From contig JAJPHE010000106.1 in NCBI GenBank assembly GCA_021325435.1, positions 1-49,722 on the forward strand: 49,722 bases of DNA. Direction: 5' to 3'. Both the position numbers and the translations under genes were made by a program. Below, in pieces: positions 38,946-41,194 of this stretch. The stretch is from Actinomycetota bacterium. GTDB taxonomy: Bacteria; Actinomycetota; Acidimicrobiia; Acidimicrobiales; JAJPHE01. The notes beneath the pieces are model-generated. The model was not told the DNA's origin. It did no database searches and saw only the letters and a program-made list of their open reading frames with translations. The number at the start of each line of letters is the position of its first letter. Position 1 is the stretch's first letter.

Positions 38946-40949
38946 TCAGCTGACCAGCACGACTCCGGTCATCATCTGGTGGAAGCCACACTGGAACGGG
39001 TAAGCGCCAGCGTCGGCGAAGGTGAACGTGTAGCTGGTGCGGGTGGGTAGGGCGTTGGGGTTGCCAGCGGGGATGTTGATCAGGATCCCCGAGCTGCCCA
39101 GGCTGTAGGTGCCGTCGATGCCGACCACGGGAGCGTTGAGCTTCATGGCGCCCGTCGAGCCGTGGAAGGTGGCGTCGCCGAAGCTGAACACGCCGCCGTC
39201 CTTGCCCACCAACCAGTAGCCCTGGCCCGTCGGCGTGGAAACCATGCCCACGATCGGGGCAGCCAGGTGGAGGTTGCCGGTCGAACCGTGGAAGACGGCA
39301 TCCCCGAAGGTGAAGATGCCGCCGTCACTGGCCACCTCGTAGTACCCGCCGCCGTCGGCCGTGCCGGTGATCCCCACTATCGGGGCGTTGAGCTTCTTGC
39401 CGCCCATCGACCCGAGATACGGCGCCCCGTTCAGGGTGAAGATGCCGCCGTCCTTGGCGACCAGCCAGAAGCCGGGCGGACCGCCGGGGTTGTTGGCCGG
39501 GGCGGCGCCGACGATGGGCGCGGCCAGATGTCCGGGCACCTGACCCGACGCCACCGGAGGCGCCCCGGGCCCGAAGCTGTAGGTGGAGCCGTCGGCCCCG
39601 AAGAGGATGTAGCCCTGTCCGAAGGGGTCGGCCAGCATCGACACGATCGGGGCGGCGATCTTCTTGCCGCCCTCGGAACCGAAGAAGCCGGCGTCGCCGT
39701 AGGTGAAGATGCCGCCGTCGGCGGCCACCTCGTAGTAGCCGCCCTGGTCACCGGTGGTGGCGGTGGCCACGATGGGCGAGTTCAGACGGATGTTTCCTGC
39801 CGACCCGTAGAACTTGGACTGGCCGAAGTCGAAGATGCCGCCGTCGGAGGCGACCATCCGGTACGCCGGCGACTGGATGGTCGCCGTACCCCGGGGCGCC
39901 GGCAGGAACGAAGCCTCGAAGTTGGCCCCCGAGGCGCAGCCGAAGTTGGGTGGGCCAGCCTGCAATCCGCCCTGCGAAGGCGTGTCGCCGCTGGCACCCT
40001 CGCACAGGCCGTTGAAGTCGAACGGGCTGTAGACGTGCGTAGCCTGGGGCGGGAACTCGACCGTGTGCGGTTCGCTCTTGCTGCCGTAGTTCCACGTGAC
40101 GTGGTCCCCGTGGGCGATCTTGAGCGTTCCCGGCAGGAACTCCATGAGCTCGACGTACTGGGTGGCCACTCCCGCGTTCACCGTATGGGTGTGGGTGCCG
40201 TCGGCGTTGGTGGTCACCTGGTCCACGTTGGCGGCCGACTCGGCGGCGAGGGCGTCAGAGGTGTCCGATTGCGCCTGTGATTGAGCGGCGGTGTTGAGGT
40301 CGGACTGGGCCGACGCCGCCGCGCTGTCGGCGACCACGTTGATCGTCGCCGACGGATTGACGATCGGGTGGCCGAAGTCGACGGCGTTGACACTGCCGGT
40401 GAAGCCGGAAGGCAGGGCCAGCTTCACGAAGAAGTCCGAGCCGGGCCCGACCTGACCGGACGAGACCTGGGCGCTGCCGTCGTAGGGGCAGGGGGTGGTG
40501 GCGTCACCGCAGGCGCCTGGAACGCCCGACCCCGGCGGGGGTGAGCTCGGGCCGAAGATGCCCAGGTTCTGCAGTGGGTTGGCGCCGGACTCGTCGCTGT
40601 CCGGCGAGACCAGTGCGTTGGCCGGGTCGGCGAAGGCCTGGTTGACGCTCTCCCCCTGCTTGAGGATGCCGACGATGTGAAGGCCGTCGCTGGAGGCGGT
40701 GGACGGCACCTTGAAGTCGACGACGTCGCCGTTGTGGACGTTGATGCCGCTGCGGGGGAAGAAGTCGGTGTACTCGAAGTTGTGCCCCGCCGGGGAGCTC
40801 CAGTCCACTCCGACGGTGTAGGTGGTGGGCGTGGTCTGGGCCTGCGAAGAGGCGGCGGGCACCAGCCACACGGCACAGCTGCCGAGGGCGGCGACCACGG
40901 CCATCGCGCCCCGACGAAGCCGCGACCGGGGACTGCTTGTCTGATTCAT
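38946..40949 (-). CDS. exported multidomain cupredoxin with six-unit propeller inserted into the second copper domain
   Basis: 667 residues with a signal peptide (1-37). Residues 43-208 form a first cupredoxin-like domain (YTVGVDWSSPAGHNFEYTDF ... GLHIVGILK ... VDFGHPIVNPSATINVV) that lacks Cys and Met ligands. A second begins at about 255: VELMEFLPGTLKIAHGDHVT and SEPHTVEFPP provide ligand H295. Six 42-residue propeller units then occupy 362-623. The fold resumes with TSYTFTFADAGAYPFQCGFH and MMTGVVLV, giving C654, H657 and M659 or M660, the CxxHxxM cluster of type 1 copper sites. The copper site is therefore split by the inserted propeller. A Ala/Gln/Ser-rich spacer (208-240) separates the two domains. 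Possible role: electron transfer or copper-dependent redox at the cell surface. No partner enzyme is adjacent. Confidence 0.85.
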   Translation of the reverse strand: MNQTSSPRSRLRRGAMAVVAALGSCAVWLVPAASSQAQTTPTTYTVGVDWSSPAGHNFEYTDFFPRSGINVHNGDVVDFKVPSTASSDGLHIVGILKQGESVNQAFADPANALVSPDSDESGANPLQNLGIFGPSSPPPGSGVPGACGDATTPCPYDGSAQVSSGQVGPGSDFFVKLALPSGFTGSVNAVDFGHPIVNPSATINVVADSAAASAQSDLNTAAQSQAQSDTSDALAAESAANVDQVTTNADGTHTHTVNAGVATQYVELMEFLPGTLKIAHGDHVTWNYGSKSEPHTVEFPPQATHVYSPFDFNGLCEGASGDTPSQGGLQAGPPNFGCASGANFEASFLPAPRGTATIQSPAYRMVASDGGIFDFGQSKFYGSAGNIRLNSPIVATATTGDQGGYYEVAADGGIFTYGDAGFFGSEGGKKIAAPIVSMLADPFGQGYILFGADGSTYSFGPGAPPVASGQVPGHLAAPIVGAAPANNPGGPPGFWLVAKDGGIFTLNGAPYLGSMGGKKLNAPIVGITGTADGGGYYEVASDGGIFTFGDAVFHGSTGNLHLAAPIVGMVSTPTGQGYWLVGKDGGVFSFGDATFHGSTGAMKLNAPVVGIDGTYSLGSSGILINIPAGNPNALPTRTSYTFTFADAGAYPFQCGFHQMMTGVVLVS
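39081..39866 (-). repeat. six ~42-residue propeller units in the cupredoxin protein
   Basis: Residues 362-623. Units start with xVASDGGIFDFG, AADGGIFTYGDA, GADGSTYSFGPG, AKDGGIFTLNGA, ASDGGIFTFGDA and GKDGGVFSFGDA. Unit 3 is expanded by a Pro/Gly-rich insertion and unit 6 ends GSSGIL as the cupredoxin resumes. They are the same repeat type as in the GH43-like protein. Confidence 0.8.
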
Positions 40950-41165: not shown

Positions 41166-41194
41166 AGAGGGGCGCCCCAGCGGGGCGCCCCTCT
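41166..41194 (-). terminator. groEL terminator
   Basis: Read on the minus strand, a 13-bp perfect stem (arms 41166-41178 and 41182-41194, AGAGGGGCGCCCC type) with a 3-base loop, followed by TCTGTTT. It lies 50 bp downstream of the groEL stop. The short T-run supports intrinsic termination. Confidence 0.75.

Follow-up and report, generated by a model that had tools for sequence, protein, structure and literature searches.

A predicted type 1 copper domain split by an inserted six-unit beta-propeller in a tandem cupredoxin of an Acidimicrobiales bacterium

Sequence comparisons indicate that the second domain of a tandem cupredoxin encoded by an actinomycetotal bacterium (order Acidimicrobiales) is of the amicyanin/plastocyanin type and breaks off after the histidine H295, to continue about 320 residues further along the chain, with a propeller of six 42-residue units lying in between. 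The gene was identified in a 49,722-nt stretch of DNA (contig JAJPHE010000106.1; here, the window), and the same architecture was found in two other genomes of the order. Neither a cupredoxin nor a six-bladed propeller is in itself a new kind of domain; what appears to be new in these three genomes is their nested arrangement. The sequence and the structure models together point to a likely identity for the product, namely, an extracytoplasmic electron-transfer protein with a type 1 copper site split around the propeller, which would act as a tethered docking module.

Results

The gene occupies positions 38946 to 40949 of the window on the minus strand (as do all of the features of this protein given below) and is an open reading frame of 667 codons with orthologues at loci L026 and L027. 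Its product, which is presumably secreted, begins with a signal-like sequence judged by eye (residues 1 to 38; positions 40836 to 40949), in which C25 fits a simple lipobox-like pattern; the two orthologues do not fit it. There follow a first cupredoxin-like domain (residues 42 to 207; 40329 to 40826), delimited by a domain profile, the orthologue alignment, and a copper-cluster profile, and an alanine-rich helical linker (residues 208 to 244; 40218 to 40328), for which the first structure model has a helix at residues 215 to 239. The second cupredoxin comes in two parts. The N-terminal part (residues 245 to 301; 40047 to 40217), based on NCBIfam, a PDB alignment, the domain profile, and a model, contains the predicted copper ligand H295 (40065 to 40067). 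The C-terminal part (residues 619 to 667; 38949 to 39095), based on Pfam, the PDB alignment, the domain profile, and a model, contains C654 (38988 to 38990), H657 (38979 to 38981), and M660 (38970 to 38972). Between them lie a linker (residues 302 to 360; 39870 to 40046; orthologue alignment and model) and the propeller (residues 363 to 615; 39105 to 39863), which was recognized by a unit profile, the model pLDDT, and VIA-align.

The neighbors of the gene in the window are SpoIID-like and groEL-like genes (the latter identified by Pfam), and no neighboring gene points to a redox partner. A terminator-like hairpin of 13 pairs, 11 of which are G-C, is located between the upstream groEL-like gene and the cupredoxin gene (41166 to 41194, minus strand; 1 found versus 0.3 expected from shuffles), suggesting that the cupredoxin gene is transcribed separately. 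Judging by eye, the gene neighborhood differs among the orthologues, with other genes surrounding loci L040 and L041.

The original prediction, made from the sequence alone, had placed a histidine ligand in the motif SEPHTVEF at residue 295 and a Cys-His-Met cluster in CGFHQMM at residues 654 to 660, with cupredoxin strands resuming right after the propeller units. These positions were confirmed: the first motif starts at residue 292, the second begins at residue 654 and yields C654, H657, and M660, and the strand segments SSGILINI and TSYTFTF start at residues 619 and 638, respectively. H295 and the cluster are about 360 residues apart along the chain. Amicyanin from the PDB (1sfd) aligns with the protein as two pieces (residues 266 to 300 and 635 to 666), and counting along the alignment pairs H295 with H53 and C654, H657, and M660 with C92, H95, and M98, the copper ligands of amicyanin. 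All four type 1 ligand positions (i.e., two His, the Cys, and the axial Met) are therefore matched at homologous sites in the second cupredoxin. The place of the insertion holds about 14 residues in amicyanin versus about 334 in the window protein.

A domain-2 profile, built from the second domains of nine uninterrupted tandem cupredoxins of related genomes, matches residues 246 to 313 (model positions 1 to 67) and 619 to 666 (model positions 87 to 136), which are co-linear and complementary pieces without overlap. It also matches the first domain weakly (residues 40 to 146; 12.5 bits). Both halves are needed for the score, because shuffling either of them lowered the 60.4 bits of the joined halves, to at most 46.7 bits for the C-half and at most 25.3 bits for the N-half (200 shuffles each). 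Joining the halves by script brought no gain over the whole protein (60.4 versus 63.6 bits), since the profile finds both pieces anyway. A domain profile of 20 rows, including the three orthologues, finds amicyanin at 8.2e-19 as well as many plastocyanins. General models of the family see the whole protein in fragments, which is itself a sign of a split domain: the best stretch for the NCBIfam plastocyanin model is residues 268 to 300, that for the amicyanin model is residues 636 to 666, and Pfam PF00127 scores 21.0 bits, below its cutoff of 21.2, with its best stretch at residues 639 to 666. The PF00127 scores of the orthologues fall on either side of the cutoff (25.2 for L026 and 20.6 for L027, the latter with its best stretch in domain 1), and those of two uninterrupted tandem relatives, taken as whole proteins, are 68.3 and 55.3.

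When N-half and C-half profiles were run over all fetched loci, 83 pairs were obtained, with a median distance of 16 residues between the halves. The distance is 10 to 105 residues outside the three orthologues and 333, 334, and 337 residues within them; a further pair, 321 residues apart (L127), was left out because a closer C-half, at 105 residues, is already the partner of that N-half.

The propeller-bearing version is present in three genomes, i.e., the window's own, one from another genus of the same family (G002, carrying L026), and one from another family of the order (G040, carrying L027). Over the aligned length, L026 and L027 are 55% and 50% identical to the window protein (range, 50 to 56%). 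H295, C654, H657, and M660 are invariant in all three proteins, and the insertion point is common to them, with SSG or TSG following the last unit. The two complementary half-domains, the conserved ligands, the six units, and the common insertion point are all seen in the sequence itself. Homology to relatives that lack the interruption, the two similarly built orthologues, and the model described below give good support to the central claim of the prediction, that a whole propeller is inserted in a loop of a copper-binding domain.

With the N-terminal part as the query, matches were found in 7 of 59 relatives at an E value of 0.001 (own genome included) and, at 1e-12, in 8 of 397 genomes of the order and 4 of 395 genomes of a class sample, the samples overlapping. 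The C-terminal part matched 66 of the 397 genomes of the order at an E value of 0.01, and among the best 30 loci for this query, a propeller (at least three units in frame) was present only in the three orthologues. Of the 366 genomes in the phylum sample, 30 matched at an E value of 0.001, and none of the loci fetched from it contained a further split cupredoxin. The split copper domain seems to be rare.

The first cupredoxin had been described as lacking the copper cysteine. This is true of the window protein, in which H91 and H194 are kept and the copper Cys is gone, and of L026 (VDFGHPI), whereas L027 retains it (CIVHPGM). The copper-cluster profile scores the three first domains at -3.3, 1.6, and 18.6, respectively. 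The Cys-His-Met cluster of L027 lies at residues 187 to 193 of its 653-residue reading, and judging from these motifs, two coppers may be bound by the L027 protein, compared with one by the window protein. Decay of the first site in two of the three orthologues, set beside retention of the split site in all three, offers a modest argument, drawn from three sequences, that the split site is under selection. Two Cys pairs are also kept in all three proteins: C147 and C154 in domain 1, and C316 (40002 to 40004) and C338 (39936 to 39938) in the linker preceding the propeller, which may form a disulfide stapling that linker.

The six 42-residue units that had been reported between the pieces of the copper domain were all found by a unit profile, at residues 363 to 404, 405 to 446, 447 to 490, 494 to 535, 536 to 577, and 578 to 618. 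The third is degenerate (3.4 bits versus 68.6 to 78.2 bits for the other five). Units from all three orthologous proteins went into this profile, and their matches to it therefore arise by construction. L026 and L027 likewise have six units each; extra matches of at most 0.2 bits fall in first domains (the one in the window protein was set aside). No Pfam family for the unit matched the window protein, and neither WD40 nor any other propeller family matched it at E values up to 10; a WD40 identity was rejected, the WD40 sequence signature being absent. The best VIA-align matches to the model are the propellers of nidogen, LRP6, and megalin (Z, 17 to 18, across model residues 117 to 378), which are six-bladed. 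Together with the designed propeller Pizza6, these span Z scores of 16 to 18, 208 to 243 aligned residues, and root mean square deviations of 3.3 to 3.8 at 8 to 11% identity, a likeness of fold only. The top Foldseek ranks are other propellers (e.g., WD-repeat and RCC1-like), and a designed seven-bladed propeller also matches in VIA-align (Z, 15.9). As six- and seven-bladed chains both match, the number of blades rests on the unit count, from which the insert is most likely a six-bladed beta-propeller.

The propeller is one member of a family of modules with many copies in the window's own genome, frequently on secreted proteins. In this genome (G000), the query matched 78 times, at about 38 places and nearly always in the propeller repeat, and the module has 56 matches in G002 and 77 in G040. 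The unit consensus resembles YWLVASDGGIFSFGDAxFxGSTGxxxLxxPIVGMAxTPDGxG and recurs in dozens of proteins of the three genomes. The loci fetched from these genomes contain 43 distinct arrays that are complete (five arrays interrupted by contig ends excluded), of which 35 have six units, 6 have five, 1 has four, and 1 has seven; 30 of the 43, including those of the three cupredoxins, end at most 60 residues from the C terminus. Six of eight scanned proteins carry a Pfam domain beside the module (GH99, NlpC/P60, CAP, a chlorophyllase-like hydrolase, laminin-G, and FG-GAP-like), and two carry the module without such a domain. The window itself encodes, at positions 514 to 2271 on the plus strand, a GH43 protein (PF04616; 117 bits) that ends in a six-unit copy (L009). 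One candidate for a second copy of the whole architecture in the same genome (C105) turned out to combine repeats of another kind with a propeller truncated where the contig ends.

In a tree of 42 arrays, the propellers of the window protein and L026 are sisters (99/99, the bootstrap being unsettled), apart from the other propellers of both genomes, and that of L027 falls among the rest, without a resolved place and not grouped with these two. By plain identity, the array nearest to the window propeller is L014 of its own genome (57%), with L026 equally close. A direct search of G002 and G040 with the window propeller returned the L026 propeller as by far the best match (4.6e-77, full length); the L027 propeller was not the top match within its genome. 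Based on the sister relationship and this best direct match, the insertion was probably inherited in the window and L026 proteins. In L027, judging from the placement of its propeller, a paralogous module may have replaced the original one, or a second, separate insertion may have struck the same site.

Two structure models were computed. The first used an alignment of the orthologues and propeller rows only and gave pLDDT values of 27 to 40 for the C-half and, by block, 40 to 72 for the N-half. For the second, 24 uninterrupted cupredoxins were added (35 rows in all), and the block values became 76 to 91 for residues 241 to 300, 61 for residues 631 to 640, and 84 to 90 for residues 641 to 667; the C-half was confident only with these rows in the alignment. 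Because every uninterrupted row in that alignment already places the two halves together, the second model is not independent of the homology claim. Short loop pieces of these rows fall in the propeller columns. Strands are predicted in both halves, the last three cupredoxin strands coming solely from residues 639 to 666. A complete domain formed by residues 250 to 360 without residues 620 to 667, the arrangement that had been weighed against the prediction, is contradicted by this model, which has no strand at residues 302 to 360. Residues 302 to 358 and 618 to 632 are modeled as low-confidence coil, although the shallow alignment may also lower the confidence of these linkers. The ordered N-half continues for 6 residues past H295, and from the homologous position of this histidine we infer that it adjoins the C654 cluster in space. 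The propeller is confident in the second model (pLDDT of 83 to 96 by 10-residue block, except for 61 at residues 461 to 470), and across both models its block values are 60 to 96, mostly above 80. The Foldseek and VIA-align lists are filled by propellers and are uninformative about the cupredoxin part. A joint alignment of full tandem relatives and propeller rows, in which the C-terminal halves of the relatives fell into the propeller, was not used for prediction.

Discussion

Amicyanin and plastocyanin (PF00127, TIGR02657, and TIGR02656) share with the split domain both halves, the four type 1 ligand positions, and the C-x2-H-x2-M spacing, but amicyanin has no large insert, and the window protein has in addition another, degenerate cupredoxin in front. 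The nine tandem cupredoxins without an interruption (L028 to L031, L036, L038, L039, L042, and L043), which come from the same class, have the same domain order with an alanine-rich linker between the domains. Unlike the window protein, they lack a propeller and retain the Cys and the following His in both domains. The N terminus fits a lipobox-like pattern in six of the nine, but the window protein fits it too, so a lost lipid anchor is a weak correlate of the propeller. One of these relatives, L031 (697 to 1734, minus strand), has an axial Gln in both domains (CMLHPFQ and CTIHPGQ), as in stellacyanin.

These comparisons suggest a route to the nested protein. A propeller from the widely copied module family would have entered the second domain of a tandem cupredoxin, in a loop flanked on one side by the strand that follows the first ligand and on the other by the strand that precedes the Cys; the length of this loop already varies in the lineage. 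Since the two ends of a closed propeller lie together, the host barrel could still close and bind copper, with H295 supplied from before the propeller and C654, H657, and M660 from after it. The site would pass single electrons, and the propeller, held outside the barrel on two linkers, would most likely be a docking element whose target is the cell envelope, a polymer, or a redox partner. Copper binding, electron transfer, and docking are roles that we infer for the window protein.

The competing reading that fares best, although we regard it as unlikely, is that recombination left an N-half and a C-half around a propeller as two nonfunctional half-domains with no copper site. The halves may indeed differ in origin: the spacing of the split domain is C-x2-H-x2-M, versus C-x2-H-x4-M in eight of the nine uninterrupted second domains, and the C-half is scored alike by domain-1 (22.8 bits) and domain-2 (25.0 bits) profiles. 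In eight of the tandem relatives (L028, L029, L030, L036, L038, L039, L042, and L043), domain 1 has the C-x2-H-x2-M spacing and domain 2 the longer one, so the C-half could, on the basis of this motif, derive from a domain-1-type cupredoxin. Loss of the copper Cys of domain 1 in two of the three orthologues also counts for this reading. However, that Cys was free to go, unlike the ligands of the split site, and both the ligands and the strand pattern of the two halves are kept in all three orthologues at 50 to 56% identity, a modest argument given three sequences.

A sensory role for the propeller, in which a bound ligand would put strain on the copper site or shield it and thereby tune the redox potential, is assigned a low probability. 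It would take the form of a ligand-gated redox switch: a polymer or partner bound to the propeller would pull on both ends of the barrel and change whether, or at what potential, electrons pass. The nesting of the propeller at the same site in three genera and the short distance from H295 to the end of the ordered N-half would suit such coupling. The low-confidence coil on both sides of the propeller instead suggests a loose tether, and it is this looseness of the linkers that makes tuning of the copper improbable; in amicyanin, moreover, the insertion loop lies away from the C-x2-H-x2-M ligand loop. If true, the switch would make the protein a sensor or a docking-triggered electron carrier.

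The same linkers, long and of low confidence in the second model, would permit a domain swap, with H295 of one chain completing the C654/H657/M660 site of another so that the protein works as a dimer. We consider this quite improbable, since nothing requires a swap and low-confidence linkers about 57 and 15 residues long would let the site close within one chain. A nitrous oxide reductase-like enzyme, with a second metal center carried by the propeller beside the cupredoxin, is very unlikely: NosZ does combine a cupredoxin with a beta-propeller in a single chain (PMC11573801), but it has seven blades, a tandem order, and CuA and CuZ centers, whereas the window protein has six units, nested domains, a single Cys (C654 in CGFHQMM) and hence no CuA pair, and no propeller histidine conserved among the three orthologues (the invariant histidines are 72, 91, 194, 253, 295, and 657).

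The preferred reading, a functional copper site split around a tethered docking module, also departs from what is usual among domain insertions. A 2026 survey of A1-B-A2 architectures, which likewise place one domain within another, gives an insert smaller than its host in 77.0% of events, with medians of 115 and 199 residues (PMC13114784). A propeller, with its ends close together, suits the role of the insert, but the window protein differs from the usual case in that survey in having an insert (about 253 residues) more than twice the size of its host (about 106 residues). The words cupredoxin, propeller, plastocyanin, and copper are absent from the main text of the survey (PMC13114784). A 2009 paper on length variation treats cupredoxins as beads on a string and does not consider whole-domain insertions (PMC2659687). 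Among the matches listed in the open-licence literature, to which the search was confined and which leaves subscription papers outside its scope, none reported the nested architecture or the propeller repeat.

Genes of this kind can be missed, as profiles pick up the copper domain only as fragments and the Pfam score is slightly under the cutoff. Cupredoxins are a standard model of a rigid barrel that tunes a metal. Copper ligands separated by a full domain of 250 residues, larger than its host, show how far the cupredoxin fold tolerates insertion, and the split protein is a natural, testable template for designs in which a redox site is coupled to a domain that binds a ligand.
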